Below are positions 20,807 through 59,100 of a stretch of 64,000 nt of DNA, one piece after another. The notes beneath the pieces are model-generated. The model had not been told where the DNA came from and ran no database searches. It worked only from the letters and a program-made list of their open reading frames with translations. The DNA lies in assembly GCF_036669915.1 (NCBI RefSeq), contig NC_089313.1, positions 16,383,075-16,447,074 on the forward strand, in the 5' to 3' direction. Numbering within the stretch: the first letter of the stretch is position 1; every line of letters begins with the position of its first letter. The position numbers were made by a program, and so were the translations under genes. This stretch comes from Pocillopora verrucosa (lineage: Eukaryota; Cnidaria; Anthozoa; Scleractinia; Pocilloporidae).

Positions 20807-21776
20807 GTAGGTTAAAGTGGACATAGTTCCAATCATCCATCTTGTATGACTTTTAATCTCAGAAAACCTTGTTGTATTTAAGCTTACCAGACTGATTTCT
20901 ATAATAAATATTTTAGCGAGAAACCGCTATATGGAGAGCAAAGATAGCTAGTTGATGTGTAAATTTGAGACACAAATTAGAGATTGCGGTCTTCCTGAAA
21001 CTAGCAAACAATATTTGGGGTAATTTAACTTCACAATTCTCCAAAAAAACTAAAACCCAGACATTACAGATACATTTCCTCTTCATCATTTTTCCATAAA
21101 ATTTATGTCATCATGAAATGAAATACGTCTGTTTAAAAGTGAAATATACTTGGCCGGGTATAATCCGGTCAGTTTCAATTAAAGAAACTCTTTCTTTACA
21201 AAAAATTATTGTAATACCAAACTTTCATTACATAAACATTTTTTAAAAAGTTTAAACGCTGTGAATTTTAATTTCAAGTACGTTTTTCTTTGTTAAATGG
21301 TTCCTTGAATTGAAAACCACATGAACGGTATAGCTCACGTACATTTTTGACAGCCTTGCCCATTGATTCTTCGCTCTATAAAAAAATTTATTCCTGTGCC
21401 CTAATATTTGAATATTTGGCAGTAATTACACACTTTCCAAGTTCTTCGATAACTTGTGTTTTGTTTAAGTGAAAGAGCCACTGAAAATTTTACTGCACCA
21501 TCTAGGTTGTTTTCGGAATTTAAACGTTTGACAAAAAAAGGGAAAATCGTAAATCGTTAGCCACACTCTAACGCTGTGGAGTTTTCTCATTGAATAGAGT
21601 TTTAATGATTAATATGTGGCACTCGAAATGAATTCAAACCGTAAAAGTGTTGAAGGTGATACGAATGGAAACGAAAAACATCAGAAGAAGTTCAACGCCG
21701 TTTCAACCGTGAGATACTGAGTATGACTTGAATCTCTCGAAGCACTGTGGGTAAACGTGATAGAGAGAAAAGAAAG

Positions 21777-24700: not shown

Positions 24701-26053
24701 AGAGTTGCTTTGTTGCTATGTGAAGCTTTGCACTCTCTTAGCTTGTTCAGAATGTTATGCGAGATAAACAAGCTACACAGCGTCACAAATGTTTGTTCCT
24801 CGTTAACATTCATATTCTTGATTATCCGGACCCTTGATTATCCAGACCATTTTATCAAGTCCCAATAAGTCTGGATAATCGAGGTTCAACTGTATTCAGT
24901 TGAAGTGTTTCAAAGAATTGACAGTGAAAGAGTAGAACAGCACGTGTCTACAATTTCAGCACCAAACAGCTACAAAAACAGCTGTAGCAATGATAACCAC
25001 ACACACAACTAAAGTTGAAAGTTTGCTGATTTAAAGAATTCTCTTGCAAATGAAGGTAACAGCTTAGTGATGGGTTGATTTTTAAAGTTGAATTTGGTAG
25101 GAGTACATGCATGTCCCTTTTCTGGTATTGGTTCAGACATTGAGACACTCTCTGGGTCCTTCAAAGATCTTCTGAGCTCTTTATCAGGGAGAAATTGGAT
25201 GTCAGTCAGCTTATTTGAAAGCCTTCAGCTCCTGAACTATGCCTCTGGTCTCAATTTTGAGTGACCATGTTCCTTTGTTAATTTCATCCAAACAGCTTAA
25301 TATCCATGTTGGTAACATTTCCCTAATGGACCAGTTTGAGTGGGACTTGTCAGAACCTCTTAACTCACCTGAAGAATTTGCATTAAGCCTCTGCTCAGAC
25401 CTGGGCCTGGGTGGTGAGTTTGCCACAGCCATTGCATACAGTATTCGTGGTCAACTTAATTGGCATTCAAAAACATATGCCTTCAGTGAGGCACCCCTCC
25501 CAAGTGTCGAAACTGCCATAAGATCAGGGACAGATGTTGATAATTGGGGTCCTTACTTGGAGACTCTGACTGATGCAGAAATGGAGAAGAAGCTTCGAGA
25601 CCAAGACAGAAACACTAGGTTTGTATTGTATTGTATTTGTTTTTTTTCTGACAGTTTCATCACCAATTATGTATCAATGGATTGAATTGATAAGTATGCT
25701 TATTTTCTTACAATTTCGGCAGCTGCTCTCAAGATGTTGAAGAAAAACTTTTTTTTTATAAGAATTTTGGCAGCTTATTCCAAAACATTAAAGAAAACCT
25801 ATCCTATTTGTTGGACAAAAGTAATCCATTTGCCTTCCATTGGCTCTTTGTCATGTTTTCTCTTTGAATGGCAGTTTTGATTACCTTAGTTTTAGCTTGA
25901 CAGCAATCAACAAAATGTACTTTATTCAATGCAATTTGTAATTTCTTGACGTATTTTGGGGATATTGTTAGAGAAATGGTTTAGTAAGAGTTGTATCTGT
26001 AATTCTCTTACAGACGAATGAGGCGTCTTGCCAACACAGCTCCTGTCTATTAG
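21777..26053 (+). CDS. SMARCB1: SMARCB1 / SNF5 / INI1, core subunit of SWI/SNF (BAF) chromatin remodeller
   Basis: Exons 21777-22240, 22567-22694, 23550-23722, 25296-25618, 26014-26053; 375 aa, close to the 376-385 aa of vertebrate forms. In order: the N-terminal winged-helix domain (about aa 8-115; [20 protein letters not shown]), a linker with [21 protein letters not shown]5 repeat 1 (from about aa 165; [20 protein letters not shown]), repeat 2 (from aa 256; [20 protein letters not shown]), and the basic C-terminal helix ([15 protein letters not shown]) that contacts the nucleosome acidic patch. Repeat 1 binds the SWIRM domain of BAF155/170. It acts in the nucleus. The ATG is at 21777; upstream in-frame sequence lacks ATG. 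A poly(A) signal AATAAA lies at 26289-26294. Confidence 0.95.
24475..24892. mobile_element. pogo/Tigger-like MITE
   Basis: Starts CAGTCAAACCTTGATTATC and ends GATAATCGAGGTTCAACTG, which are near-perfect terminal inverted repeats of about 20 bp. It is flanked by TA on both sides (24473-24474 and 24893-24894), the target duplication of Tc1/mariner-pogo elements. No transposase is present in the 418 bp. It lies in SMARCB1 intron 3. Confidence 0.75.
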
Positions 26054-26671: not shown

Positions 26672-29600
26672 TTATTTTCTAATAGCTTTCTCCTCGAATG
26701 TTTGGTGAGTCTTTTCGAGTTCATCTATTACCTCCAACAGCTTCGTAGCCATAGCTCTTTCGGCTGTTGAAGACGTATGTGAGTCCTTTACTGATATCTC
26801 TTCATCTTTCGCTGTGTCGTAGGATTCTTGAGAATGTTTCCGCTGCTCATTAATTCCAAGAAATTTCTTTCGAATCTCGTCTCGACTTTGAAGAAGCTGT
26901 GTAAAAATCATCTGCGCTTCGGAGTCTGGGTCCAATGGATCTCGCCAGTCGCTCAAGGTCACGTGTGTATGTGTCCGCTGACAACCTCCAGCTGAAACAG
27001 GGCGTAGAAATTTTTTGTTAGTCTTCACAAGCTGGGGTTTAAAGTATTAAGGCGCAATCAACCGAGCCTTTCCCACTTTCTTATTGCAAGGCACGAGTGA
27101 GGCATGTGGGTGGGTTATAATCGACCTGCTTCACCGCTAGAGCTCTTCCTAAGGTTGGATTGGTTTTTATAACCCTTTTACAAAACACGTGATTGAATCC
27201 ACTGACCTGATTGAATAACTCGCTTGCAGCATGTCCATTTGTTTTTGTGAAAGACTCCCGGATGGAAGTAATTGAGCAGATTAGTATTAGAAATGGTGGT
27301 CTTCCTTATCGCTGAAAGCCACTGATTCATTTCGTTCACATCCTGAAGACAAAGTAAAAAGTTATCAATTTTTTTGTTGCCTGCAGCGAGGCTCTTGCTT
27401 GCGGGCTCAGCAACAACCTTTGTGTAGCATACAAGCTGTCGGGGCAGGCGTGGTTTATTTTTCCACGAAGAATGCGCACAGTTTGCATTATTGCATGAGT
27501 TTCTGACGTGACGATAGTATAATTTACCTGAGCGGCGAGGTAGAGAATTTGCAGAGCTTCATCATAACCCTTACTGACCACTTGAAACACGTTGGGTTTT
27601 TGAAAAGCTGACTCGTCAACTCGTTCCACGGCAAGAATTTTTCTGGTTGGAAGAAACTGCCTTGTCTGTAAAGTGGAAAGGTCAATTAGACAGAATATGG
27701 GAGTGGCACACCCCCTTATTTTGTTACATCATACATTTATTACCATTACGATAGAAGCTAATGGTTGAACGCAGAGATCACGTCGAACTAAGTTATACCA
27801 TCTGATTGGTTTCCGTATACATTTCGTCTTAATACAAAACTAATTCCGGACCAGCTGCTGAAGCGCATCTCGGTTTATATGTCAAGTTGCCTCCCCCCTC
27901 CCCCAATTCGCTCCTTTCCAGGCTTGTCGTGGTTTTTTTCGACTATTAGACGGTACCCGTGTAAGTCTTGGGGGTAGGAGGGGGAGGGGGGCAATGCGAT
28001 GGTTACATGTCTTTTATAATAACACAACATCATGACCGAGGATAGGGATTGCACCTGCATCTTTTGGGTCAGCCATAAGAGTGCGGTGTCTCCGATGCCA
28101 TTTACCGATATTTGGAAATAAATCTCACCACAGGTCTATTGTAATCTTATGCAACGCCTTGCTTTGATAATGTGTTACCTGTGAATCGTTTGTTTTGGCG
28201 TAAAGGAAATTCTCAGTGCTGAGCCAACAATGGCGCTTTTTGAACTTGAACGGCTTTGGCAGCCTGGTGTCCCTGTAGCGACTTTTCTTGAGAGAGCCTT
28301 CCTTGATGATCAGTGAGTGACTGAATACGGTCCTCCTGTGGTCACAACCTGGAACTGAAAATTATAGGAGACAGAGAATAAAAGAAGGAAACAAAAGTAT
28401 TTTTAATTTAGCAATCAAAGAAACACCAGGAGAGCCTTAAAGGTAGAGAATCATCCGCGAAGATTTGCTCCCCTTTCGAGTGGTGGTGAAGAGGAGACTA
28501 CATTTTTTGACCAATGGAATACGCCCAAAGTGTGCCTAAGCCGTCATTCACATACCACCTCCAATCGAAAATTCGTTATTTTTTCACTGTTTCATTCTTC
28601 GAGTCAAGACTGTTTTTCTGACTAAAGTTAGGATATGGCGAATGCCCTGCTATCAAAAGATAGTTACCTTCTGTATCTTCCACGTCTGCAAGCTGATCCA
28701 GGAAGTCCTTTACTTCATCAGTGTACAATGCGATCCATTTGTACAGTGGTCCCATCCATTCCTCCTTTCCGTTTTGAAGAGGGAGTTCTATGTTGCCAAT
28801 CTTCTGGACAGTCTAACAACAAAGGCAACAAACAAAAAAGAACAATCAGAAATATTTCTTGCGGTTTGACGACAAAAGAGATTTCACGTTGTCCGGGAAC
28901 GTTTAAAGAAAATTGCATCGTCGTGAATTAATTCTGATTGGGAAAGTCTTAAATTCGCAAATCAATGAAACCAACCCTTTCCCCTTCTCCTTCTTAAGTT
29001 TGACAGGCACACATTCTTATTTGTCGTCATCGTCCTTCTCTTCTTAAATACAGACCTTTGCTAGGATGGTTAGGGTGCGTGATACATTTTTGTCGGCGTG
29101 GTTTTCACGCAGACCGAAGAGCTTGGGTCCAAGTATTGCTGGCACATAGAATCGTAGAAACAGGAAACCACTCACGGCTGTGTACTTAGAGTCCTGAGAA
29201 AGGAATGATTTAGTCATTTCTAACATTTGAGATTGTATTAGCTACGATTAAATCAAGGCTGTGGTGGACTGAGGAGCAGTCTTTGCGTGCCTCTTTAGTT
29301 TCCAGGCTACACTGTGTCAATATACGCTATCTGAAATATCTTCAGTTTTGCGGACTTTGACATCTTCACTTTGCGCTTTATTTTCATTAGTTCTCCCGAA
29401 AGATTTGGGCTTCGGCTAACAGGATGAAAGATGGCGATTTTAGGAATTGGTTATATCACATAGAGGAATTTCCAATTCACCCTCCTAACCAATAAAAAGC
29501 AAAACTACAACCAACAGTGACTTGTCCACTTGTATTTTCCCGCGCATCCGGCAGGTTGCTTGAACTTAACTTTGAGCTCTGATTGACTCCTTGTGATATT

Positions 29601-32600: not shown

Positions 32601-35600
32601 ATTGGAGCAATTCTTTTTTAATGGTTGCCGAAAGTTATCTGGGATTACATTTAGTTTGCCTTACATCGCCCTGTGATTGGTCCAAAAAACTCATGACATC
32701 ATATACACCAATCAGAAAAGATGTGGAAATAAATCAGGAGCCCATATAATGGGCTCCTGAATAAACTAATTACAACTTGACGAAAGAATATCAACTGATG
32801 ATTGGTGTCATTGAAAAGTTTCTGAGTGTAAAGCGCTTGGACGGTTTTGTACTCTGTATACAGAGAAAACATTAAGTTCGAAATTTTTGGCTGCCTGGAA
32901 GTGCTTGAGAATTGTAAATAAAGGCAGAACATTTTCGTATAAATATTTTTTGGATTTCGAAGAGAAATATGGAAAAATATCGGACTTCCGGACGTTTAGT
33001 TATTTTAAGACCGTGTCCGGCTGCCGGACGTTTAGTCACTTCATTTCAGAAACGTCGGCGACACTGACAGCTTGCGTTACAATTCTTATTTGCTGCTTTG
33101 CATGGACAACAACCTCATTCACTCTTTCGCGCGCAAGCTCCTCTCCGCGGGCAGGAAACTTCAACTGATCCTTGGTCCTGTTTAACAAGGATGGCAAACT
33201 TCAATCAAAAAAATTGATGTATAAATGAAAACGTGGTGGATCAACATTTTCACCTTCCTCGGAATGCTCGCAAGGATTTTCGTGTTCCTGAATAAGTAAT
33301 TCAGGGTATCGAAGTTGTGTATCAAACTCAGCAGGGAGTGGACCATGATTTGTTTACTGCTTATCGCCTTTGGGACGCTTCTCTCTGATTCGGGCTTCGT
33401 TATAGTAACCGAAGCACAACAAGCCAAGATCCTACTGCACTCAGTGAATAACAAAAGTTCGCCGAATGCATTTGAGCTGAACCTTGATGTTTTGAAAGAG
33501 ATATCACAGATGGAGCGACCGATCCGAGTTATCGCCGCCGTTGAAAATGCTCGAGTTGGAAAATCAACCTTCCTAAACGTATTCAGTTCTATTATCAGTC
33601 GAGAGGGAAAATCTAACGCAATTAAAGAGGTTTTTAAATCTGGTGCCTCGTTGGATCCTGTCACTCGTGGTGTGTGGGCGCACATAATACGACATCCCGA
33701 TAAAAATGGAAGCATACTTTTGCTTGATGTGGAAGGTACAGATCTAGGAAATGATAGTGTAACTGATCGCCTTAGTATGTTTACAGCCATGTTGTCTTCC
33801 GGACTGAATAGATTTGCGCTACAAGTCGTGAAAAACGGAGATATCGACTTCGTTTACCGCATAGTACGCTTGAGCGAGCTTGTCTTCGAAGGAAGAGATA
33901 TTCCAAATAATTTCCCCAAACTTCGAATCGTTTTACGGAAAAATCTAGACGTCCCCTTGAAGATTATATCCTTCAGAAAATCTTTCATCCTGACGGGCAG
34001 AGCATGGGAAAGGAGAAAACGATCAAGAAATACTTTACAAAAGATCGTATTTCAGTGAGTCACATCCCTTCGGTGGATAATCCCTCCGAATTATTCAGAG
34101 ACCTAAAGCAATTGCAAAAAGAGTTCTGCTTGGAATTTGTTCGAAAAGTTGGTGCAGAAGATGAAGGACAGCCCTGTAAAAAATACTTCTAAAGGCCTTC
34201 CGATTGACGGTGAAGCACTTCGTGTCCTCACTAAAAAGCTCGTTGAAGCAATGAATAGTGCTAATGTTTCTTGGAAAGATTTCGGAGATGTATATGCCGT
34301 CATAGAAAGGTATATTTGTACAAGAAGATACGAAAAGTATATCAAGTCTGTCTTACTGCAGCAGACCTCGAGAGAAATGGAAGACAATATGTTGAAAGCT
34401 TTACGTAAATTTGAACAGGAATGCAGTCTACTAAGCGAGATAGAAAAGGCGGAGGAAGCACTTACGAGTACGCTGAAAGAGAAAAGAAAGCGCGAGGAGG
34501 AAGAAAAAAAGAAGACAAGAAGAATGGAGAAGATTGGAAAAACAGAGAACAAGATATGAAGAAGTAATAAGGACAATAATGGAATAAAAAGGAGACTAGA
34601 GGAAGGAAAAAAAAGACGAGAAGAAAAAGAAAATTGGTGGGAATATGCTAAGAGCGCTGCTAAGTATTTAACCCCACTCCTCGCAGGTGCCTACTTTTTC
34701 AGCGACGAAGATCTGAAAGACAATGTAACAACTCTTTCCTGCTCCGAGTTCAACGATATCGGCCTGAGGGGGGTCTGCTGGAAATGGAATGAAAACGCTC
34801 AGAAGACCTTCGGACTGACTTGGGAGGACTGCGGAGTGATTGCTCAGGAAGTTAAAGTTCTATATCCTTGGGCTGTGACAGAAAGAACGGATGGCTATCT
34901 ACGAGTGCACTATGGCATTCTGCATGAAATGATCAACGTTGCCCACAGCAAAAGGCAGTCATCTCGTTTCTTTTAAGTTTTTATAGTTGTATCAGTCAAT
35001 CTGGAATCCCTAACCTAGACTTGTTTACTTGTTTCAGTTGTAGCGCATAGTCAAAACCAAGAGAATGGAAACATCTTATCATAATGGATGTAGGACGGAA
35101 GCCAGGACCCCCAAAAAGAGTTCCGTAGACTGATCGAGTGAGAAAAAATATGATAGTGGATTTTGATAGAAAAATGCTGGCTGATTAATGTCAAGTAGTT
35201 TGAAGTTGTTTTGTTGTATAGGTTTTATATCAAGGGACTGTATCTATACGCCACTCCTTTAAATCGTGGAAACGAGGCGCAGCCATTAAACCACTGATAT
35301 TGCCTACACTTATTATTGCCTACACGGAAATCTTCAATTAAAGTTACATCTTTACAACATGAATCTCAAACATGGTTGTGCAAATTGAGGTCACGTAACT
35401 GAGCGCCATTTATTCGGCCTTTGTAGCATAAATGGGTGAAAGGTGTTTATTCTGTTATTTTATATGAAAGGGCCATACAATCTACAGTTCTAACCAAATT
35501 TCAGGTTATTTAGCTCTGTATTACGCGACACCGTATTAAGCGGGTACCCTGTAACAAACGGTCGATTTCGACAGGTCCAGAATTTTTTTCCCTCAAATGC

Positions 35601-38600
35601 TGTAACTTTTGCCTCTATCATGGATAATGATCAGATGAAATAGCGTTTTTGACCTTTTTTTTTATGACTTACCTCTGTGGCACCTGTATTAAGCGATCAT
35701 ACCGCCATTCTTCGTTAATGACTGCTGAACACAGGTTCGACTGCACCATTTTCGTCCCATTTACGGTTGGATATTAAACGAGGCTCACTAAGGTAATCAC
35801 TGTTTACATCCATTCTTTATGCATTCATGCAGAACAGCTACTGATATATCGTAAGCTGTTTATGACAGGGCCAGCCATGCTAAACCAATGCAAAATATGG
35901 CCACGTGATTAGGCATGTGAACTCCGAAGAGGCCTCAATCGCTTTTGCGTAACAAACGAGTGAAATTGTACGTGTATCTGTGTTATCCTTCGAAATATCT
36001 AGTTTTTACCACATTCTAACTCAGTGAGTTGCGTACTGGGACGAAAAACACGATGTTATTGTTATTTTGTTCTTGTTCTTAATCATTTATCCGATTTATT
36101 GTAGGGATGATATTTTACGAATTCTCGCACCTCACTATAGTTCAGTAAGGTACATTTTAAGACTAGAAGACGCGAAATCATCACTGATTTTGACCTGTTG
36201 AGCATGAAAGTGGCTTATCTTGACGTTACTCGACAGAAAGCGAACCTTTCAAACATGGACGCCTTAAACGCCAACTATTTTAAAGTACTTCTGTAACTCT
36301 CTATCCTCATCACTTCCTTCTGAGTCACTGACACAGGTCAGAGCGCGGGGTTCTTGAAGGCTTCATCGTCTGCCATGCAGAAGTACCCTTCTGTGCAAGC
36401 AAGTCCTGTGTTGGCATGCTGGCATGCTGCTGCCGGTGCTTTTGTGATGAGCAGTGGCACGGGAAGCCCCCTGTCCCCCAGCTATCCATGACCCTCCCTA
36501 CATACTTCGCCCCTTCGGTTTCATAACGAAAGTGAAACCGCTTATACTGCATCTTTGATCAGGAATTAATGTGTTTTGCAACGTTTGCAAGGCTTGAAAC
36601 GCCCCGGAAAGAATGAAAACCAACGAAGGTAAAATGAAGCAGACTTTTCCATACTTAACAACAGTTAACGTGTAGGTCTTTAAATGGAGACCATAGAGAC
36701 CATAGAGATAAGGAAAATCTAGTATCATTTAGCATTAGTAAAATGCAAATTACTCTATGGCTTCCTGCTTGACCGAAAGTGATTTCATGAATTTTAAACA
36801 GGTGTTTCACCCACGTGGTCTCACCGAATAAATGATTTGGGGTAACGAATTTGTTAATTAAACTCCTTTCTTTGAATAGCAGGGAGTGAATCATGATTTG
36901 CCTTCTCCTTATCGCTTTTGGAACGCTTCTCTCTGATTCGGGCTTCGTTATAGTAACCGAAGCACAGCAAGCTAAGATCCTACTGCGCTCAGTGAATGAC
37001 AAAAGTTCGCCGAATGCATTTCTGCTGAACCCTGATGTTTTGAAAGAGATATCAGAGATGGAGCCACCGATCCGAGTTATCGCCGCCGTTGGAAATGCTC
37101 GAGTTGGGAAATCAACTTTCTTAAACTTAGTTGGCCATATTTTGGATGAAAAGAGAACATCTTCTGTAATTGAAGAAGTTTTTAAAACCGGCGCTTCAAT
37201 GAAGGCAGTCACTCGCGATGTATGGGCATACGTTATTCGCCAAAAAGAGGGAAGCATGCTGTTGCTTGACGTGGAAGGTACGGATTTAGGAGACGACACT
37301 GTCACTGATCGCCTAAGCATGTTTACAGCCATGATGTCTTCCAGATTGAATGTTTTTGCAGTAGACTTTGTGGGAAACGCTGACACTGATTTCCTTTATC
37401 GAATGGCACGCTTGAGCAACCTTGTGTTCAAAGATAAAAACATTTTAGATCATTTCCCAAAACTGCAAATCGTGTTGCGGACTAATCTCGGTAGTGATGG
37501 CGATTATAACTTCGAAGAAATTATCAGAGGTGAAACTTATAAAGGGAAGGAAGATAAAATGGAAACGATCTATAAATTTTTTCCGAAGGATTCCATCGCA
37601 GTCACCCGGATTCCGTATGTTCACAATGCCGCTCAACTATTCAGAGATCAAAATGTGTTAGAAAACAGCTCTGCTTGGAAAGCGTTCAAAACCGCGATCG
37701 AGAAAATTAAGGAAAGTCCAAAAAAAAAAACTTTTGAAGGAAGTTCTATCGACGGTGAAGCGCTTAGCGACCTCGCCGAGCGGCTGGTTCAAATAATGAA
37801 CAATAATTCATGGGAATATTTTGGAAACGTGTACGAAACCTGGGAAAGAGATATTTGTAGAAAGAGTTACAAAGAGCACATTGAGCCGGTTTTAAAGCGG
37901 AGAACCTCAATCAAAATACAAGACGAGATGATAGAGGCCTTAGACAAATTTAAACTTGTGTGTAACCTACAAGGAGAAATAGACCATGCGAAGGAAGAGC
38001 TCAAGCGTACAGCAAGGGATAAAAGAGAGTTTGAAGAACAGGAACACCAAAGGAAAGAAGAAAGAAGAATACAAGAAGAGAAGAGAAAAAGAGATGAAGA
38101 AAGTTGGTGGGAATATGGAAAGACCGCTAGTAGTTATTTAGGTACATTTATCGCAGGTGCATACATTTTCAGTGATAAAGATCTGAAAGACAACTTAACA
38201 ACCCTTTCCAGCTCCGAGTTCAACAATATCGGCCTGAGGGGGGTCTGCTGGGAATGGAATGAAAACGCTCAGAAGACCTTCGGACTGACTGGGGAGGACT
38301 GCGGAGTGATTGCTCAGGAAGTTAAAGTTCTGTATCCTTGGGCTGTGACAGCAGGAACGGATGGCTATCTACGAGTGCACTATGGCATTTTGTATGAAAT
38401 GATTAACGTTGCCCACAGCAACATGAACTTGTAGCGTTCATATTGAGTTTTCATTGTTGTATTAGTCAATCTAGAATCCATTATCTTGACTTTTTAACTT
38501 GTTTTCAGTTGTAGCACTTATTCAAAACCAAGAGAATTGAAACACCTAATCATGACGGATGTAGATCGGAGGCCAGGACCCCCCAAAAAAGGGTTTCGTA

Positions 38601-41600
38601 AAATGACCGAGTGAGGAAAGATTTGATGGTGGATTTTGATAGAAAAATGCAGGCTGATTAATGTTAAGTAGTTTGGAGTTGTATTGTTGTATAGGCTCTC
38701 TGTAAAGGGACTGTATCTATACGCCACTCCTTTAATTCATGGAAACGAGACACAGTCATTAAACCATTGATATTGCTTACACTTATCGCTTATTATAAAA
38801 ATCTTCAATTATAGTTACATATTTACAACATGAATTTCAAACGTGCCCAGGTTGTGTAAATCGAGGTCACGTGACCGAGCACCGACTAAAATAGCCTTTT
38901 AGTGCTGTCATGAGCACATTTATACGGCCTCTGTGGCATAAATGTGTATTTGTGTTCTGCTATTTTATATGAAAGGGTCGTACAATCTACAGTTCTGACC
39001 AAATTTTAGGTTATTTAGACCTGTATTACGCGGCACCGTATTAAACGGTCACCCTGGAATAAACGGTCGGTTATCAATTTTTTCCCTTCAACTGCTGTAA
39101 CTTTTTCTTCCATCATGGATAATTATCGCATAAAATAGCGTTTTTGTCCTTTTTTTTACATACCTCTGTGGAACCTGTATTAAACAGTCATACCGCCATT
39201 CCTCGCGGGTGACTGCTTAACACAGGTTCGACTGCACTATTTTCGTCCCATTTACGGTTGGACATGAAACAAGGCTCAGTCAGGTTAACAATGTTTACGG
39301 CCATTTCTTATGTTTCTAACATATCGTAAGCTCTTAATGACATAAGGCCAGCCATGCTCAGCCAATGCAAAATATGGCCACGTGAACAGGCACGTGACCT
39401 CTGAGGAGGCCTCGATCGCTTTTGCGTTATACGTGTACCTGTGTTATCCTTCGAAATTTTTTTTTTTAACAACATTCTAACTCAGTGAGATGTATACTAG
39501 GACTGAAAAATGCCTTATTATTATTATTATTGATATTTTTCTTCATTAAGTTACTTAATCACTTATCCGCTCTAAAATTCTTTTGAAATGAAGCTTTTCA
39601 CGATAAGCACCGGCAGCAGCATGCCTTGTCGAGCCGAAGACGAGCTAGTGGAAAACGTCCGCCTGTCAGCGAAACTGCTCCTGTAACAACACAGGACTTG
39701 CTTGCACAAAAGGGTGGTTCTGCATGACAGACGATGAAACATTTAAGAACCCCCACGCTCTGACCTGTGTCAGTGACTCAGAAGAAAGTAATGAGGATAG
39801 AGTATTGAAGAGAAACTTTACAATAGTTGGCTTTTAAGACGTCCATGTTTAAAATGTTCGCTTTTTGTCGAGTAACGTACGAGATAAGTTACTTTCATGC
39901 TCAACAGGTCAAAATTAGTGATGATATTGCGTCTTTTAGTCTTAATATGTATCTTAATGCGATAAAGTGAGGTGCGAGAATTCGTAAAATAACATCTCTA
40001 CAATGAAACTTTTGTGATGAGCGGTGACACGAGAACCCCCCTGGTTCCCCAACCATCCATGGCCCACTGGTGATTCAAGTTCCTTCATAGTTCGTCCCTT
40101 CGGATTCATAAGGAAAGTGAAACTGCTTAAACTGCATCTTTGACAAGGAATGTGTTTTGCAACGTTTGCAAGGCTTGAAACGCCCCGGAAAGAAAGAAAA
40201 ACTATCGAAGGTAAAATGAAGCAGACTTTTCCATACTTCAGAACAGTTAATTTCTGAGTCTTTAAAAGGAGACCATAGAGATTAGGAAAATGCAGTGTCA
40301 TACTTCATTGGTAAAATGCAAATTACCTTATGGCTTCCTCCTAGACCGGATGTGTATTTCATGAATTTTAAAGAGGTGTTTTTCCCTCGTAGTCTCACCG
40401 AATAAATAATTTAGGTTATCGAAATAGTGTATCAAACCCTTTCTTTGAACAGCAGTGAGTGGACCATGATTTGTTCACTGCTTATCGCCTTTGGAGCGCT
40501 TCTCTCTGACTCGAGCTTCGTTATAGTAGCCGAAGTACAACAAGCCAAGATCCTTCTGCACTCAGTGAATAACAAAAGTTCGCCGAATGCATTTGAGCTG
40601 AACCCTGATGTTTTGGAAGAGATATCACAGATGGAGCGACCGATCCGAGTTATCGCCGCTGTTGGAAATGCTCGAGTTGGAAAATCAACCTTCCTAAACG
40701 TATTCAGTTCTATTTTCAGTCTAGAGAGAAAGTCTAACGCAATTGAAGAGGTTTTTAAATCTGGTGCCTCGTTGAATCCTGTCACTCGTGGAGTGTGGGC
40801 GCACATAATACGACATCCCGATAAAAATGGAAGCATACTTTTGCTTGATGTGGAAGGTACAGATTTAGGAAATGATAGTGTAACTGATCGCCTTAGTATG
40901 TTTACAGCCATGTTGTCTTCCGGACTGAATATTTTTGCACTACATGTCGTGAAAAATGGAGACATCAACTTCCTTTATCGCATAGTACGCTTGAGCGAGC
41001 TTGTCTTCGAAGGTAAAGAAATTCCAAATAATTTCCCCAAACTTCGAATCGTGTTACGAACAAATCTGAACGTCCCCGATGATGACAGCCTTGAAGATTA
41101 TATCCGTCAAACAATCTTTCATCCTGACGGGCAGAGTATGGGAAAGGAGGAAATTATCAAGAAATACTTTCCAGAAGATCGTATTTCAGTGAGTCGTATC
41201 CCTTCGGTGGATAATTCCTCTGAATTATTCAGAGACATAAAGCGCTTGCAAGAAAGTTCTGCTTGGAAATCGTTCGAAAAGTTGGTGCAGAAGATGAAGG
41301 ACAGCCCTGTGAAACATTCATCAGGAGGCCCTCCAATTGACGGTGAAGCACTTCTTGTCCTCACCACAAAGCTTGTTGAAGCAATGAATAGTCCTAATGA
41401 TTCTTGGAAAGATTTCGGAGATGTATATGCCGCCATGGAAACATATATTTGTACAAGAAAATACGAAAAGTATATCAAGCCCGTCTTACTGCAGCAGACC
41501 TCGAGAGAAATGGAAGAAAATATGTTTAAAGCTTTACGTAAGTTTGAACAGGAATGCAATCTACAAAGCGAGATAACAAAGGCGGAAGAAGAACTTATGG

Positions 41601-44600
41601 GTACGCTGGAAGAGAAAAGAAAGCGCGAGGAAAACGAAAAAAGAAGACAGGAGGAAGAAAAAAGAAGACAGGAGGAAGAAAAAAGAAGACAGAAGGAAGA
41701 AAAAAGAAGAGAGGAGGAAGAAAACAAAAGACGAGAAGAAGTGAAGAGAAAACAAGAGGAAGAAAGCTGGTGGGAATATGCTAAGAGCGCTGCTAAGTAT
41801 TTTGCCCCATTCCTCGCGGGTGCATACTTTTTCAGCGACGAAGATCTGAAAGACAATGTAACAACGCTTTCCTGCTCCGATTTCAACGATATCGGCTTGA
41901 GGGGGGTCTGCTGGAAATGGAATGAAAACGCTCAGAAGACCTACGGACTGACTGGGGAGGACTGCGGAGTGATTGCTCAGGAAGTTAAAGTTCTGTATCC
42001 TTGGGCTGTGGCAGAAGGAACGGATGGCTATTTACGAGTGCACTATGGCATTTTGCATGAAATGATCAACGTTGCTCATAGCAACAGGAACTCGTCTTGT
42101 TTATTTTAAGTTTTCATCGTTGTATTAGTCATTGTAGATTCAATGATTTTGACTTTTTTACTTGTTTTCAGTTGTAGCACTTAGTCAAAACCAAGAGAAT
42201 TGAAACACGTAATCATAGGGCTCATAGAGAACTCCATCAACTCCATCAAGCGCAGAATACTGCTTCGATGAACGTTTTTGTTTCGCGTTTTATCGGCTGA
42301 GAACATGTAAATGCTGAATTTTTTCAAATCTGTCGCTTGGAGCCATTTAGAAAAATCTTTCACGTTATCACAAAATTATAAATGCCTGTAACCCCTGTAA
42401 CTGTTTGAAAATTAAACCAAATATTTTTGTTACTTCTGAAAGGAATGGTGGACATATTACGAATGAAAATCACCATCATTATATAAACCCCACAGTTTCA
42501 TTGATTACCTGCCCAAAACAGCAGAGTGCATCAGATTCAATCTTCACTTCAGCAGTCATCTTTAGTTCCTGTAGCGGTTCTTTCACGTCCACCTCTAAGC
42601 ACTTCTGTTTTGCAGGAATCCACATCTTTTTGTGCCCCTGGAGAGATAAAAAAAAGATTTTAAGGGATCATTTCATCTCCCTCAGACAAATTTATGAGGC
42701 CACCGTAATTAAGGTTCCCATAAGTCATGTTCCTGTCCAAGTTTGCTCGAAATTTGAAGCTTTTAATATATTAATACTGGTGGATTATCCGTAAGTTTTA
42801 CAAGTTATGGTAGTTATGGAAGTTTTTATGACCATGAGAATGTTGGAATGATGGGTGGGGGGGGGGGGGAAAGAACCGGGAGCAAGGAAAGAGGTGCCCC
42901 CCCCCCCTTATTTCCCCTCTCAACCACAAATAAAATACTTCTTTGTCAGCGGAACTCAGGTGAAGCCTTCATGTAAGATACCAGTGGAACACGAACGCTG
43001 TTTTTGGATGGGACACTTTACTCTTCACCTTAAAGGCCGTGGATTTTATTCCATTAATTGCCGCCACCCCTGGATTGACTAACCATTTCCTACACTCTGC
43101 TGTAAATTTTTACCTCTGCGAGTTTGACGACTGTTTCTCGTAATGATAATCGCATCTGACCACCGCCTGTACTTGATTCCCTGAGGGTGAGCTTTACAGA
43201 TGGCTCTAAAATGCTACGGCCTGTCTCGGGAAGGTCCCTAGAGGAGATAGATGAACATGTAACTTCTCCTCAGCAATTTTAATACATTATCCAGCAAACA
43301 GGTGACGAGAATAGACAACGATCTTAGTTTGAGGATATTCTGTTGAGAAAACACCAAATTCTCTTGACTAGTTTACAAAGAAATATGTGAAGGTCAGAAG
43401 TGAGAATTTCTAGTCAGATCTAGGACACTTTATTGATTAAAATTAGGTACATGATCTGAGGTCCAATTACCTGACTTCTACAACTTTTGCTCTGATTTTC
43501 TTAACATCTCCCTGGTTGTAAAGAAGGGGAAAAAAGCATCCTGTTACAAATTATTCTCTTTGAATTCCACCCATCCAGGAGCACAGTAAAAACGCTACGT
43601 TAGACCCTGAAATGGGAAGACGGTAACAAGTATACTATTCCGTCCCGGAGGTGAAGAGGAGTAAGATCTCCACCTTCACTTGCTTCAGTGCTCTCGTAAC
43701 ATTTTTAATTAAAAATTAGTTACTGCTATTGTGTTGTTCCTCGTTAGTCTTCGTCGTAAAATAGTTAGTGGTCGTGATTTCTTCGGGACATTTGGTAAAA
43801 ACTTAACTTTGTGGCTTTAGGTACTCGTGAAATTTAGTCGTGTTGTGCGACTTTTCCCTTACCTTTTCGAAAAGTGTTGTTTCAATTCTGATATCACCTT
43901 GAATGTCTGAGTAGTTGTGCATATCGGCTAAAGACACGGGAAACCATTTGTCCAGTCCCTTGGAACTTTGCGCCAATGTCTCGCGGTCAAATGTCACTCG
44001 ACCAATAAGATCATCGACCCTAGCGAAAAAAAGAAAAGCACTTTCGAAGTTACCAACTAAAACTGGGTAACATTTGTGATGATTCAAAATTGTGTGTGGC
44101 AGCAGATGAACCTTAGTTAACCTAACTGCCAATGAGAACTCAATACATTTTGACCGTTTGAAGCGCGGGAAAACGCAAGTGTCAAGACGCAGAGGGTAAC
44201 TGTTTGCTTTTGATTGGTTCAGAGGGCGGCACGAGCTTTCTAGACCAATCACAAAAAAAGAAACACCAATACAATTTTATATTTCTATCGACAGTCAAAT
44301 GAAAATTGCCGTTTGCGCGGAACGGTCTTTTGAAACATGGTTCATTACATAATGTCAGTTTTGTCGGTCGAAAAGCATTCGAACGAGAAAAGTGCAGCTA
44401 TTATTACCCAATGGTGTCCTCATCATAAACAAAAACAGACAAATTCGTAAAACCAACTGGAAGAAACATAGTATACTCTTCTCCCCAAAATGGCTCCAAA
44501 TCTCTCCAAACTGTGGCAGTTCTACAAAAGAGGAAAAAGTGTCACAACTTAGGTGATAAGTTATTTCACGAGAAAAAAAATTAATGCACAAGCCAAATGT

Positions 44601-46334: not shown

Positions 46335-48043
46335 TTTACCGGGTTGATTTTCGTCTACAAGGCGGAACTGTTGGCAGAAACAAGTATAACAGAGGAAAAC
46401 TGATGCAAGATCAACGGTGGTGTTAGCACCCTAACTTTTTGTCGGGAAACAACGGAAAAACTCCTCCCTTACGAGTAGAACTCTCAGTTTAAAAACCGAT
46501 TCATTAACGGTCCATGTGACTCCCTGGGCGCCGAGTTGCGTAAAAGCTATCAAATAATATCATAATATATTGTCTGACCCGCGGACCATCAAAGGAATTT
46601 GTTTATCTCTAAGCCTATTTGCAGGTTAGCATATCATTAAATTGTTAAAAATAACAGACAGCCTGTATCTGACAATAAGCGAGCACTCTCAAAATTTTGA
46701 GCAATGAATCTCATTATCCTCTGTGCGAAAATTGTGTTGATCTATAAAACTCTCAATTAAGGTCCCATACGTTCGAATGGTAACTAAGAATATGGTTACT
46801 TTCGTCGAAATTATCATTTTTTTTAAATTTTGGTCTCAAACGTCTTACAATATCGCTGTCTATGTTGTGTGACGTTTTGTTGTTTTTTCTCTCCATGGCT
46901 GAGCAACTGCGTCATTCATGAGATGAAATATAGGGGGCAGTCCTGAAACAAAATATAAGAGCAGCATTTACGTTTGTTATAATACTTTTCACTGTCACAA
47001 AAACGTTATCAAGTCATCTGCTCCATTCATGGTTACCCTTGGAGCATCCTTAGATAAGAAGAGAACAAAAAAATTATTAATTAAAAAAAAAAAAAAAGAA
47101 AAAGTATTATAGTCTCCTACGACGTACGAAATTTTGGAAGACAACTTTATATGCTTTGTTGCAGACTTATTTAAGAGTTATAAAGCAGCGGACTGAAAGT
47201 GTTGTGATCATAAAATCTTAATAGTTCCTTGTCTGATTGTCTGAGGTCTCCCACGGTTTAGCGATAGAGTTAATCGCAACTGAAACTCGGGGATATTACT
47301 TCAAATGAGAATATTTTTTCTGGGATATCCATTACTAATGTCTTATAAGAACCAATTTGTTAAGTTTTGTGTAGCGGCACCTACCTGATTTTATATGGGA
47401 TTCGTTTGCGATATCCAAGGTAATTGAATCGAAGCGAAAATATCTCTTATTAATTTCCTATTTCCTTCTTCCTGTTGCTGTAAGTTGTTGTAGCTTTTTT
47501 TAGCCCAACTCAGATATTATATTTCACACCCATTTGGAGCCCTCCTGATGACGTAACATAGTTACGGGGTCACTAGGTTTAATTTTTAAATGTTTTTGGA
47601 TATTCAAGTAACAGATACAAAAATAAAACATTACTATGCATCAAATTTTATTAAGAATTTTTCTAAAAGTCAAGAGAGTTAATTTAAAGCGCACTTTAAA
47701 ACCATTGAATGTTAAAATCCTTGTGCCGTTTTGAGCCACTAATTTGCTCAAAGTTTTAGCTTCTTTTTATTGGAGGTGTTGATGATCGGTCATTTCCATT
47801 AAAAGTTTCCTTTAAAAACTGGAATTGTCGTATCGGGACATTTCATTGCACCTCAATCCCACTCTTAAATGATGAGCGTAGACTGGAAACGAGTAACTAT
47901 ATCCAAAATGGCTCCCAAGTGAAGTTGTGTTGGGCTGAGGTGGTTGGTGTTTTTTTCCTTTGAGCTCGAGCCAATATTGGACCATCAAACGGGAAAAAGT
48001 ACATTAATAAATATATAACCAGCTCTTCACTGTTTTTAAAGAC
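46335..48043. promoter_or_regulatory. Divergent intergenic region between RASAL1 and MZT2
   Basis: About 1.7 kb between the RASAL1 start codon (minus) and the MZT2 start (plus). A TATA-like AATATATAA lies near 48010-48018, about 30 bp before the MZT2 ATG, so it could be a core element only if the 5' UTR is extremely short. A long A-run lies at about 47083-47098. No coding region is supported. Confidence 0.35.
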
Positions 48044-48469
48044 ATGTCGAGATCGCAGTCCTCACCGGATATTTACAAGGTGTCTGTAACTCGGACGAGC
48101 TCCAAGAGCTTGGACGAAGAACTTCTCGAACTGTGTAATTTGAGCGGAGTCACTTTAGATCCTGATGTCTTCAAGATATTGCTGGATTTGATAAAGCTTA
48201 ATGTTCCACCGCCTTCGTTAGTCACAGTTCTTAAGCAAGTCGCTTCTACTAAGGGCTATCGAAACGAAGGTCATCCCGCTTTGTCAGCAAAGTCGAGTAC
48301 CGGTTCCACTAGTTCGGCAGGAAGCGCTTCAAGTTATGAGTCTTTACAATCTTCACAAAGTACCATTGCTTCTGGAAGTAGTTTGGGATCGACTCAAAGC
48401 CCGAGACTTGAGAGAATTCCAATTTCTAGCCGTCTGAGGGAAATGAAAGCCAACGCTATGCCGCAATAG
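48044..48469 (+). CDS. MZT2: Mitotic-spindle organizing protein 2 (MOZART2) homologue
   Basis: Intronless, 141 aa including the start at ATG 48044. The core LCNLSGVTLDPDVFKILLDL followed by IKLNVPPPSLVTVLKQV matches the helical MOZART2 core (vertebrate IDPDVFKILVDLLKLNV). The rest is a Ser-rich, low-complexity tail, as in the vertebrate protein, ending RLREMKANAMPQ. MZT2 binds the N-terminus of GCP2 in the gamma-tubulin ring complex at centrosomes and spindle poles. It is near the usual size (about 158 aa). Vertebrate genes are spliced, so a single coding exon could reflect retroposition or intron loss; no poly(A) tail remnant was recognised after the stop. Confidence in the family is high because the core motif is distinctive. 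Confidence 0.88.
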   Translation: MSRSQSSPDIYKVSVTRTSSKSLDEELLELCNLSGVTLDPDVFKILLDLIKLNVPPPSLVTVLKQVASTKGYRNEGHPALSAKSSTGSTSSAGSASSYESLQSSQSTIASGSSLGSTQSPRLERIPISSRLREMKANAMPQ

Positions 48470-53100: not shown

Positions 53101-56100
53101 ATGGCCGCAAAGATGGCGGCCTTATTTCGTTGTTATAGAGTTTCTTTGGCTTGTCGGCCTGTAGTTACGGACGAAATTAATTTTTTAATGCGGAGACAAT
53201 GTGTATCATTCTCACGCAGATGTGATTTAAGTTGCTTAGCGACAGAAAATGGCATTTCACCCATATCGAAAAATACATTTGGATACCAACAGACCTCACT
53301 TGTGGGATTGCAGGAGAAGAGATTTTTTACATCTTCCTCCGTCACCCCTAATGATAACCCACAAATAAGTAAGTCATAAACGTGGCTGTTTTTAATATTA
53401 ATATTAATATTAAGAGAAGGTAAGTTACCATTTCCTCCCAAAAGCCATGCTTAATCGCTTCTCATTCCACACGACCCTAGTGGGTGTTGGGGAGGCGTGT
53501 TCAAGTGGGTTAGGGTCTAGTGCAGTGGACAACAATTGGGTTCATGAAAAATTAATTTAATGATGCTTTGATTTAGCCTTAATACTGCTTTCACTTGCTT
53601 GCTTCTAAGTAAAACAAAATCTAAAATAAGCACCCAAACCCCAGTTTGCAGAGGGTGGGGGGAGTGCAGGTACAATCTTTCCCCAAAGCACTCGGTAGGA
53701 ATGTGAGAGACGTGTTTGCCTAATGATTAGTGTGCTGGACTCTGGGTTGAGAGGTCTCAAGACCTGGCTGGGTAATTGTGTTGTGTTCTTGGGCAAAACA
53801 CTTCACTCTCATTCTACCTCTCCCCACCCAGGAGTATAAATGGATATTGGTGGAGTGTAAGGGAGGCCTGATAAAGTGCTAAGGGAAGCCTTGTGGTGTA
53901 CCAGCATCCCATGCAGTGGAGAGAAATAGTCTTGGTCCCTTTAAGTATTAAAACCAGGAATAAACTGAGTGAAGACTTTACTGTTTTATTTACTTATTCT
54001 GAATTCCAGAATCAGAGAATTAATTTTTGTGCCCAGTAGCTTTGAAGCTAAGTGTACATAGACCAGTATATTTTAAGTGCTGTATACTTGGCTTAAAATG
54101 GTTCTGCATGCGTGAGAATGATTGTCCTATTTTTTTCATATCTGCAGTCTTGGCCAACCTGATTTTCACTTGTATTTCCTACAACTGGCATCAGTTGTTT
54201 AGAGTACCTGATAATTAGAAGGCTTTTAAATTTATTCTTGTCTGCATCCCTGGATGTGTATGAAAAAAATTAACCTATCAGATGAGCCCTATGAGCCTCT
54301 AGAAAAACCCCTAACCCCTCAACTCCCATGAGTGACCAAGACAGAATTTCTCCTTACAATATCAATACAAAATCAATGATATCAGTGACGATGATAAAGG
54401 AAAATGTCAATTAGGGGATTACTAGCTGATTCATTACCAAATTCTCCAAACTAATATCATAAGAATTGTATGACAGGAAGGAGAATTACTGTAATAAAAA
54501 AATGTAAAAACTTTCAGGAGCTTGTGATGACTATTTTTAATTAATTTTGTATTTAGAAGGTTTTAGGTTACCTAATTACTTCTTTGGTCTCTTGCAGCAT
54601 TTGAAAGCCTTTCCGATCTGATAAAAGACAAACTACAAGAATCCCTTAATCATGATTCCTTGGCAACACACTTGAAAGTTCTTGAAGCTTTGATCAAGCA
54701 TTGGAAAGGGGAAGTGCTATCTGTGTCTGTCACAAGAACAGCAGCAGAATGTAAGTCTTCATCATTGTTAGATTGTAAGACCTTGTTTATTGAAAAAAAA
54801 TCATATTATAATATTATATTCGATATGAACCATGACTTTCTATCATGATAGTATTATATGATAAATTATGCACAAATCTTGATTGGTTCTTGCTGATAAG
54901 ATATTGACGGGCAGATGCATAGATGACTTCACTTTTAACAAAATTTTGCTTTTTTATCATGTAAAACAAAGAGTTTCCATGTTGCTGTGAGTCTGTACAG
55001 TAATAGATCACAGAAGATGTGAAAGTGTGGGAAGGACATCAGTGATGTATTTGAGTGTGCCTTGAGTGAAGTTTTTGTTCTTACCACATTTTGACATCTT
55101 CTGTTATCTATTACTGAACACTGCTTGGCAACATGGAATCTATTTGTTAATAAACCCTTTAACTCCCAGATCAAATTTGTAATTCTCCTTACTGTCAACC
55201 ATACAATTCTTATAATGTTAATCCAGAGAATTTTATTAGTATTGGATCAACTAGAATTATCTCCAAATTGATATTTTTCTTAGTTCTCATCACTTTGCTG
55301 GTTGACATGGTACTGATATTGTAAGGAGAAATTCTGTCCTGGTCACTCTAGAGAGTTGAAGCGTTAAGCTATGATCATAATAACAAATAACAGCAAGTGG
55401 TTTTATGTACCATGAACTAGCAATCCATGGATGCTATATTCTGCAAGTAGCTGCAAGGAAGGGTTGAAAATGTTCTCGAATCAACTAGATTTGACTCAAA
55501 TTGGATGATTAATGCCCTTAAAAGTCGACACATCATACCAGAAGTCAATTTGCAAGACACTTATATCATATTCCACAACTTGCTATGAGGGAGGGTTGAA
55601 AATGTTGAAATGTTGAAAATGGAATTGTGTGACGTGGACTTTGTATGAATTTTATAATATTGAATTACCTTGAAATTTTTATTATTTCAGTATCTTCAGA
55701 GGATGTTTATAGACTGGCATCACTTATCTTTGAAACCCAAGAATCAGGTGTGATAGAGAAATTTGTGAACTTTAAATATTTGCTATCACAATTGCATCGT
55801 CCCATAGGAAACTCTAGAAAATCCAATGTACTTCATCAGTGTAACAAGTTGGGGGTCTTAGTGCCACTATCTACCTATTCCCCAGAGGCTTAAAGCAATG
55901 TTAGCAAGTTGTACTAACAAGCCATACAAATACTAAATGTCTGATATTACCCTGTTTATAGTTGGAAAGGATGCAGTTGAATTGGCTGCTCCACTGTTCA
56001 GATTTTCTGCAATGGCTGGAAATCCAGATGGAATGTATAGCTATGCAAAACTCCTGGAAACAGGTTGATTACTCTTATCTGGATAATAATATTTGTATTC

Positions 56101-59100
56101 ACTATGCTTGTGACATAATTAAGTATGATGTTAAGAGAGGTCTTCCTAGCATAGAGTGGTTGTCCCTTTTTTCTTTCTTTGATTTTATATCATTCATTTT
56201 CTCTTTCTTTTTATTTCATTCTATCCCATCTTGTCCCATCTTATCTCATCTGACCTCATCTCATTTCCTTTCACCGTATCTTTTCTCATTTCAGTTTGTT
56301 TTATTTGTGCTTTATATTTCTTTTATCTGCATTTTCTCAGGAGAGGGTGGAGTAGAAAGAGACCCCATTGAGGCTGGAAAGCTTTTCTCAGAGCTTGCAG
56401 ACCAAGGTCATCCATTTGCTCAGGTTAAAGGCTTTATATAGATTATGGCATAATTTAATCCAGTTTAAGTTTAAAACATTAATGGAGTGTATGAGGAATT
56501 AGGGAGGTTTCTAGAGTACATTAGCAAGTGCTCATGCTTTTTCAGCTTTGCTGCTTTCCTTGCTTTTTTTCCTTCCCTTTCTCACACATTTGGAGATGTA
56601 TTCATCCCACACACATTTTTTTAAAGTCATGATCACAGGTGCCCAGTTCTGACAAAACATGAAATTACTTTTCTTTTCTTTTCAGTTTACTTTAGCACAT
56701 TTTTATCACAATGGAATTGGAATGAAAAAAGATTTACAGATGGCCCTTGAGCTTTATGAGGTACCATTCTACTGTGCTTGTTCTACCATTTCAATGTTGC
56801 ATTGATATAATGTCATTGTGTAAAGTGATAGTTTGTGCTCATCATTTTAAATATTCTGGTCAGATCTCAAATTTAGAAATTGAAAAAGTTTTACAAAGAA
56901 AAATTTGAAATGGAAACATTTTCGATTTTAAATTAATAAGTATTTTTAACCCTCAGATCTTCAGTTAACAGGTTGTTCCTTTTAATGGCACCCTTGTTTT
57001 GTCTAAAATTAACATGATGTGGCCTGTTTTTAGGATATATATATAAGACAGTATTGAAATTCTCTGTATAGGAATATGTTGGTTTTTTTTTTTAATTTTG
57101 TTTTTATTGAGAACAAGTTAAGTTGACACATGTGATGTGTTAATCCTCTTCTTAATTTCAGGCCAGTGCAAAGAAGGGTGTGAGAGAAGCTAACACTATG
57201 ATAGGTATGTACATAAATGACCACTGTTACATGTTAGAGCAAAACTTAAATTATTTGCTGAACTCGATAGGGCTCTGGGCTTATTGTGTATCAAGCTGGA
57301 TTTTGCATTTAACCCTTCATCTTCCAGAAGTGATTAGCAAGTATTTTCTCCCTATGGTGTCTATACATTATCCAGCAAACAGATAATGAGAATACTCAAA
57401 ATTATCAAGTAGGAGTTGTTATATTGATCTAATGTCAAATTCTCTGACTTTTTTGCAAGGAAATGTGTAGTAGCTAGAGAGGAGAATTAGCAATCAGATC
57501 TTGGAAGTTAAAGGGTTAAGTCCTTTGTACTCATGATTATAGGCCAGATTTCAGTGTTGTTCCCTGGGTCTTTTCCTTTCCTCCTTTTCAGCCACTGATC
57601 TTTTCTCCTCTTTCCCTCCTTCACCCCACCAGTGTGCACCCCAGGCAGCAATATACTGCTAGTTACTGGGGGTGTATCGCTGTCTGTAAGACTTAGCACC
57701 ACCCACTGATTAGCCTGTTAGCAGGCTCTCCTGTTCAGGTTTTGCTGCCACCTATTAAACCATCAGCAGCTGCTTATGTTAAAGGTTATTGAAACCCCCA
57801 ACCCCAAGAACCTGGGAAATAAGCTCATGAGGTCTCTGATTTTGATGACATAAGTAGTTCACTCTAATTCTACACAAGAATAACATTTATTAAATTTAAT
57901 AAAAAACATGATGTGCATTTGATATTCATTCATTAAATTTATTAAAAAACATGATCTACATTTAATGTACATCATTTCTTTTGTTTTTTTTTAAGGAAAC
58001 ATGTATACTACTGGAGAGATAGGAAAGGTAGATCTAACAAAGGCAGCCAAGTATTTTACAAAAGCTGCTGAAAAAGGTTTGTTTTTATATGAATTATGAA
58101 TTACATGTTAAACTTTTTGCAGAGAGATGAAAAACTGACTAATGAATTTTCTTATTGGACAATTTATGATATAAAAGGATGGTGTATCATATGAAAGGCA
58201 CATGACTGGTGTGCACACATGTCATGTGGAATCATTGATTTAGTGGTATAGTAATAGCCCTGAATCAAGTATTAAGGTCACTATAACAATGGGAACAATC
58301 ACCAACTAGAGAAATTCTTGATTGTTAAACAAACTCCCCTTGAGTTTTCAGCATCTTAGGAAATGTATAGAGAATTGTGTGGAGATTATGCATACAGATA
58401 TTAGGGTGTAAAGGGTTAAGGATTTACTTGTTTGTCATTCAAGGAGGAGTATTGAATAAGGCCAAAATAGGGGAAGATGCAAGTTAGCCTTGCAAGGCAG
58501 GAAAGACCTTGTGAAACCCTTTCCGGTAATTTTATTACTAAGAAATGTGTAAGTCTGTTTGAGAAAGAGAGAGAGAGAGAGTGTGGCCTGGGAGAGAGTG
58601 TGGGCTGGATTGTATCTTCAGTGTTTTGGTATTGGAGTTATCATGAGGTGAAAAGCTTCCCTGATTTTGAAACTATAAAGTGGTCCACTTTCATTAAGGT
58701 GATGTGCCAGCTCTCATGTCACTTGGTGCATTTTACAGTCAAGGCACTGGTGTAGAAAAGAATTTTCAAAAGTCATTCAAGTGCTACAAAGCAGCAGCTG
58801 ACCAAGGTACATATGTCATAAGCTTAAATTCTGCAATGTGGTAAGGGCAAAAACATACTTAGTGTAACATAACCGTGTTATTTTTGGTTTGTGTGTTAAC
58901 TCGTAGTCTGTCTGTTTGTCAGTCTGTCAATCAGTTATTTACAATTATGATAGTCAATCAGTCTGTCAGTGCAACAGTAAGTCAGTCTAGATCAGGGAGT
59001 CAGTCAGTCAGTCAGTTAGTCAGTCAGTCATCATCTATCAACCAGTCTGTGAGTCAGTTGACTAGCAGTTCAGAAGTCTGCATGATTATTTTACAATTCC

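Follow-up and report, generated by a model that had tools for sequence, protein, structure and literature searches.

We examined a window of 64,000 nucleotides from the scleractinian coral Pocillopora verrucosa (NCBI RefSeq assembly GCF_036669915.1, contig NC_089313.1, positions 16,383,075 to 16,447,074 of the forward strand), in which three gene copies lie as direct repeats with a spacing of about 3.5 kb (Table 1). The gene under study, copy 3, encodes a GBP-like GTPase with a C-terminal peptidase S74/ICA domain. Its frame is open over 547 amino acids plus the stop codon and contains all of the motifs, as well as Ser457 and Lys462, that had been quoted in a preliminary description made from the sequence alone. 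The neighboring copy 2 is likewise intact and its protein is 64% identical, and both copies carry GBP and Peptidase_S74 above the Pfam cut-offs, with copy 2 matching at E 1.2e-6 (28.4 bits) and E 1.6e-7 (32.0 bits), respectively. The fusion of a GBP with an S74 domain is thus confirmed in two intact genes. Among the open papers listed by literature searches aimed at this pair of domains, none describes the architecture, in agreement with the earlier statement that no GTPase of such layout is known to have been described.

Purifying selection on copies 2 and 3 was shown by computation. The two copies differ at approximately 147 of 324 synonymous and 241 of 1214 non-synonymous sites, giving a ratio of non-synonymous to synonymous divergence (dN/dS) of 0.33 (Fisher p 3e-19). 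For the S74 part alone, the difference was also significant (Fisher p 0.02; dS 0.18, dN/dS 0.33), and the first 24 codons taken by themselves gave no significant difference (p 0.13). Moreover, the frame of copy 3 is not a product of chance, because its paralog has both domains and the broken third copy keeps an S74-positive piece; pieces of this broken copy are still matched by the Pfam profiles (GBP, E 8.4e-10; Peptidase_S74, E 2.5e-7, 31.3 bits). Divergence between copies 2 and 3 is mosaic, with synonymous divergence of 0.15-0.34 at amino acids 1-58, 0.18 in the S74 domain, and more than 2 at amino acids 201-432, a pattern such as gene conversion or a swap of the middle part may leave behind. 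We considered and rejected the view that the S74 domain is the best conserved and hence the most constrained part of the protein, as synonymous sites in this domain have diverged just as little. Copy 2 is flanked by a pair of inverted repeats (36095-36413 and 39687-40007), each about 320 bp long and 87% alike, which possibly belong to a mobile element.

The start codon of copy 2 is supported by a TGA that lies in frame, two codons 5' of the ATG, and an acceptor-like CAG is found about 10 nt 5' of the ATG in all three copies. Taken together, these features fit a single coding exon that would lie behind a leader intron. A splice-acceptor-like TTGTTTTCAG (TTGTTTCAG in copy 1) is also conserved in the three copies about 60 nt 3' of the stop (within 42110-42216 for copy 3). 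The DNA common to the copies stops about 107 nt past the copy-3 stop, and for this reason a further exon common to all copies and encoding a leucine zipper, of the kind discussed below, is unlikely.

The GTPase part of copy 3 matches the GBP profile PF02263 at 42.6 bits (cut-off 21.1), which bears out its earlier assignment to this family, and the 13 best matches of the full protein in the PDB were all GBPs (E 1.4e-7 to 4e-5), followed by a phage protein (E 0.0055) aligned over the charged segment and the S74 part. A second PDB search likewise returned GBPs. Common features with GBPs (GBP1, GBP2, and GBP5) are a P-loop containing an arginine, the switch motifs, and a G domain that precedes a longer C-terminal part; GNARVGKST and DVEG, corresponding to GxxRxGK(S/T) and DxxG, are present in both intact copies. 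The window protein differs from GBPs in its hydrophobic N-terminus, in its C-terminus of charged helix and S74 domain, and in its G4 motif. This motif, X(V/L)RD, is among those defined for GBPs in the accessible portion of PMC9839784, and its Asp is missing here, the intact copies having VLRT and the broken copy VLRK. The same portion reports that exchanging the G4 Asp for Ala in mGBP2 alters GTP activity and oligomerisation. A CaaX lipid anchor, found in hGBP1 and mGBP2 but not in every GBP, was sought at the C-termini of the window proteins and is absent, the sequences ending in SSCLF (copy 3) and SNMNL (copy 2). At the N-terminus, the best 19-residue Kyte-Doolittle mean is 1.97 in copy 3 and 2.11 in copy 2. 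The predicted model of the GTPase part, built from only 5 closely related rows, is unusable at a pLDDT (predicted local distance difference test) of 39.9, and scans of viral and prokaryote collections with short, automatically picked patterns found no relatives of the GTPase. Homology to the GBP family is what suggests an immune relevance of the window protein. GBP homologues rise upon antiviral stimulation in the cnidarians Nematostella and Stylophora, as described in the accessible part of PMC13319465, which does not imply a link to the gene in this window.

The C-terminus of copy 3 was likewise correctly assigned beforehand, matching Peptidase_S74 (PF13884) at E 8.3e-7 and 29.7 bits (cut-off 22) over amino acids 457-514. 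An AlphaFold2 model of amino acids 430-547 (mean pLDDT 85.4) contains the ICA core, with its elements in the same order as in the ICA domain of MyRF. In a Foldseek search against the PDB, the top three matches were chains of the MyRF ICA crystal structure 7dc3, with probabilities of 0.97-0.99 and E-values of only 0.013-0.032, while 7dc3, 3gw6, and 3gud, all of them ICA/intramolecular-chaperone entries, ranked first among the 908 chains aligned by VIA-align. Structural searches also matched 44 viral models to the S74 model at E-values of at most 1e-3. As algal viruses and one Megaviridae sample rank among the best of these, the donor of the S74 domain need not have been a phage. PHROGs matches for the S74 part belong to tail/fibre and ejection families, and an NCBIfam search returned nothing above a cut-off. 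An origin from MyRF is not favoured, given that Pfam reports Peptidase_S74 and no MYRF-named family among 10 families at E-values of at most 1, and that phage domains match the window domain at up to 46% identity. A PDB search with the C-terminus as a single sequence gave no MyRF match at E-values of up to 5, which is a weak argument because no phage S74 structure was found either.

The residue register onto MyRF that we use here is partly our assumption. Ser457, Asp458, and Lys462 are conserved in all three copies, so that each retains SDxxxK and with it the dyad proposed in the preliminary description. Both intact copies also keep Trp483 and Trp485 (equivalent to Y615 and Y617 of MyRF), Gly501, Ile503, Gln505, and Val525 (V669), including the GVIAQE pocket. 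At the +3 position, the Arg of SDxRLK (MyRF R590) is replaced by Asp in all three copies. According to the accessible portion of PMC8326128, the cut in MyRF falls between P586 and S587; cleavage is abolished by S587A and by K592A, Y615A together with Y617A prevents cutting at the normal site, and R590A leads to incomplete cutting and to new sites without abolishing the reaction. In a bacterial S74 family that cuts, SDxxxK is described as the only catalytic motif required (PMC10769870, accessible part). Since the other pocket residues that we checked are kept and SDEDLK fits SDxxxK, cleavage of the window protein stays possible.

The window domain departs from MyRF most clearly at its end. Trimerisation of MyRF is driven mainly by a C-terminal four-heptad coil in helix alpha4, and, in the same accessible portion of PMC8326128, zipper mutations including L692A alone block cleavage, with single zipper changes also blocking trimerisation. 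In the VIA alignment, the last residue of copy 3, Phe547, pairs with MyRF 691, one residue short of L692, leaving L692, I696, and L699 without a counterpart. The four-heptad zipper is therefore missing from the frame as read, unseen spliced ends aside. The residues that remain at a/d positions are H531, I534, H538, R541, and C545 in copy 3 and Y, I, H, and M in copy 2. Without the zipper, the domain would most likely not trimerise and cut unaided in the manner of MyRF.

The segment upstream of the S74 domain had been described as a charged coiled coil, a view that we do not share. In no register do amino acids 366-434 have hydrophobic residues at more than 5 of 20 a/d positions, and Glu is paired with Lys or Arg in 33 of the 65 possible i,i+4 pairs. 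Single alpha-helices are known to have such a composition. The paucity of hydrophobic a/d residues and the high content of Glu, Lys, and Arg make this segment more similar to a single alpha-helix than to a coiled coil, and trimerisation through a coiled coil formed by it was judged unlikely. No trimeric beta-helix was recognised upstream of the S74 domain, where the composition is that of a charged helix and a hydrophobic stretch.

An S74 scan of viral contigs without phage rows in the query found nothing, and relatives appeared once phage rows were added. We aligned 88 phage and viral S74 domains, of which 8 came from phage records and 80 from IMG/VR contigs; the latter are the best 80 of at least 214 relatives (from 600 stretches) and were picked by likeness to the query, such that class proportions are specific to this sample. 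Classified by the tail after the conserved Tyr, 28 domains were short (at most 15 residues) and zipper-less, 58 were long and complete (at least 19 residues), and 2 were neither. In the long class, Leu occupies the positions of MyRF 678, 685, and 692 in 56, 43, and 48 of the 58 domains, respectively. The 20 residues before the Ser are richer in Gly/Ala (0.39 versus 0.23) and poorer in polar residues (0.27 versus 0.44) in short-tailed than in long-tailed domains when the classes are divided at 20 residues (31 versus 56 domains). Asp is found at +3 in none of the 87 domains aligned there, and the short class keeps the Arg in 26 of 28. Because one search pattern required SDxxLK, we assessed conservation in those 34 of the 80 loci whose domain did not match it, 33 of which could be aligned. 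Ser and Lys are each present in 33 of these 33, including all 8 that are zipper-less, and Arg occupies +3 in 23 and Asp in none. Zipper-less S74 domains thus retain the putative Ser-Lys cutting pair. As for genomic context, the domain of Pseudomonas phage AH02 (gp11; tail of 18 residues) has a P22-like injection gene as its neighbor, and a DNA injection gene directly follows the short domain of Vibrio phage PVA1.

The window protein has in common with MyRF the order of ICA elements and the Ser-Lys pair, but MyRF carries a DNA-binding domain and a beta-helix stalk before its ICA domain and a zipper and transmembrane segment after it. In phage fibres and tailspikes such as the endosialidase 3gw6 and the GA-1 neck appendage 3gud, a trimeric beta-structured stalk precedes the domain, and in the 58 long domains sampled a zipper-like helix follows it; the window protein shows neither. 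In common with the zipper-less phage domains, as in AH02 and PVA1, are the short end after the conserved Val-x-Tyr, a stretch ahead of the Ser that is hydrophobic or rich in Gly/Ala, and identities of up to 46% over the domain, although these proteins have no GTPase and mostly retain the +3 Arg. Membership of the window domain in the zipper-less phage class is unsupported, the scores against hidden Markov models of the classes being nearly equal and BLAST scores not differing (p 0.13). Judged from sequence, the likeness is one of anatomy and not of core sequence.

We hypothesize that copy 3 encodes a GBP-like GTPase with an S74 module that is unable to trimerise alone, and that any cleavage depends on assembly of the GTPase part; we assign this reading a probability of roughly 40%. 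The charged helix, hydrophobic stretch, and S74/ICA domain occupy the place of the lipid-anchored C-terminal end of mammalian GBPs such as hGBP1 and mGBP2. The S74 core is predicted to fold and retains its Ser-Lys site in the absence of the zipper with which MyRF and long phage S74 domains form trimers. By gathering several chains, the GTPase part might bring about an ICA trimer, with any cut then falling before Ser457. What we infer beyond the computed results is the dependence on GTPase assembly, cleavage as such, and a part in cell-autonomous defence. The following points weigh against this reading. The first is Asp460 in place of the Arg at +3. Second, GTPase-driven assembly may be impaired, as the G4 motif is VLRT and loss of the corresponding Asp alters oligomerisation in mGBP2, as far as the accessible portion of PMC9839784 reports. 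Third, the hydrophobic stretch at the N-terminus may act as a signal peptide, in which case the GTPase would enter the secretory path and the topology would change wholly.

Almost as likely is that the S74 domain does not cleave at all and serves as a folded interaction or folding module on a GBP-like protein, its Ser and Lys being kept for structure. The absent zipper, the Asp at +3 in all three copies and in none of the 87 phage and viral domains, and the failure to recognise an upstream beta-helix are all consistent with such a module, and past the S74 domain there is no membrane or other domain for a cut to free. Conversely, the invariance of Ser, Asp, and Lys in the three copies, that of Ser and Lys in all 33 pattern-free viral domains, and the retention of the aromatic pair and the GVIAQE pocket count against a non-cleaving module.

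The mechanism originally proposed, in which the protein trimerises through the coil and the ICA domain, cuts itself constitutively, and frees a trimeric GTPase, appears rather unlikely. It draws on the ICA fold and the Ser-Lys pair, and on SDxxxK being the sole catalytic motif required in the cutting bacterial family (PMC10769870, accessible part). Yet the trimerising element that it requires is not visible and the change from Arg to Asp at +3 is ignored: the zipper is gone, whereas single zipper mutations are enough to block trimerisation and cleavage in MyRF (PMC8326128, accessible portion), the charged segment makes a poor coil, and no upstream beta-helix is recognised. The preliminary interpretation is thus partly supported, in its domains and dyad but not in trimer assembly and release by self-cleavage.

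A bolder and improbable version of our hypothesis is that an immune GTPase equipped with S74 cuts itself only when clustered, for example on a pathogen membrane, as an assembly-licensed switch. Clustering of the GTPase would join three S74 domains, and the cut before Ser457 would remove a C-terminal cap, expose amino acids 435-456, and place the assembled GTPase irreversibly in an effector state. If true, a phage folding sensor would have been turned into a clustering sensor in animal immunity. Least probable of all is a locus that is not functional as drawn, being a decaying tandem array or having other exons (a different start, or a spliced 3' exon with a zipper), for while copy 1 is broken and acceptor-like sites precede the ATG and follow the stop in every copy, two of the three copies have uninterrupted frames of more than 510 codons under the selection described, and both the in-frame TGA of copy 2 and the early end of the shared DNA argue against it.

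In the literature examined, the animal proteins described with S74/ICA domains are MyRF and some further proteins of the Ndt80 type. If animals also use the S74 module in an unrelated setting, on a GTPase from an immune family, this would show repeated recruitment. The lack of a zipper also makes it possible to ask cleanly whether ICA cutting requires self-trimerisation or any forced proximity. Should cleavage prove nucleotide-dependent, it would constitute a processing switch, none of which is described for GBP-like GTPases in the literature searched.

Table 1. Features of the three gene copies, with positions counted from the first nucleotide of the window.
Feature	Position	Strand	Basis
Copy 1, broken	33345..34976	+	out of frame from about 33955 to 34107; stop codon at 34557-34559; P-loop Gly67 position occupied by Glu
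Copy 2, intact paralog, 513 aa, GBP and S74 domains	36893..38434	+	open frame; Pfam
Copy 2 S74 domain, aa 427-513	38171..38431	+	PF13884 E 1.6e-7
Copy 3, gene under study, 547-aa GBP-like GTPase with C-terminal S74 domain	40466..42109	+	open frame; Pfam GBP and Peptidase_S74 above cut-off
Hydrophobic N-terminal stretch, aa 2-22, possible signal or anchor	40469..40531	+	Kyte-Doolittle
GBP-type GTPase domain, aa 42-180	40589..41005	+	PF02263 E 5.3e-11; GBPs in PDB
P-loop GNARVGKST, aa 67-75, Arg70 at arginine-finger position	40664..40690	+	alignment to GBP2
DVEGTDLG, aa 128-135, switch 2 / G3	40847..40870	+	alignment
VLRT, aa 196-199, replacing G4 motif X(V/L)RD	41051..41062	+	alignment to GBP2
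Charged helix, aa 366-434, 72% E/K/R	41561..41767	+	composition; heptad count
Aromatic/hydrophobic stretch, aa 435-456, directly before S74	41768..41833	+	sequence; low-confidence helix in model
S74/ICA domain, aa 457-547	41834..42106	+	PF13884; model; structural matches
SDEDLK, aa 457-462, Ser457/Lys462 of putative cutting site, Asp460 replacing Arg	41834..41851	+	alignments; MyRF S587/R590/K592
Shortened helix alpha4 without leucine zipper, aa 527-547	42044..42106	+	model helix; MyRF 691 equivalent; a/d residues

Elsewhere in the window, tRNA and Rfam scans gave no match. A piece at 405-1004 (+) is similar to the N-terminal region of HAP1, with 30.9 bits where the cut-off is 33.9, and Sel1-repeat pieces of a further gene lie at 59144-59419 and 55962-56441 (+), the second match falling below the curated cut-off. 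Animal-type genes in the window are represented by SNF5/SMARCB1 pieces (20196-20807 and 25236-25682), a BTK-motif piece on the minus strand (27178-27558), and MOZART2 (48011-48466).

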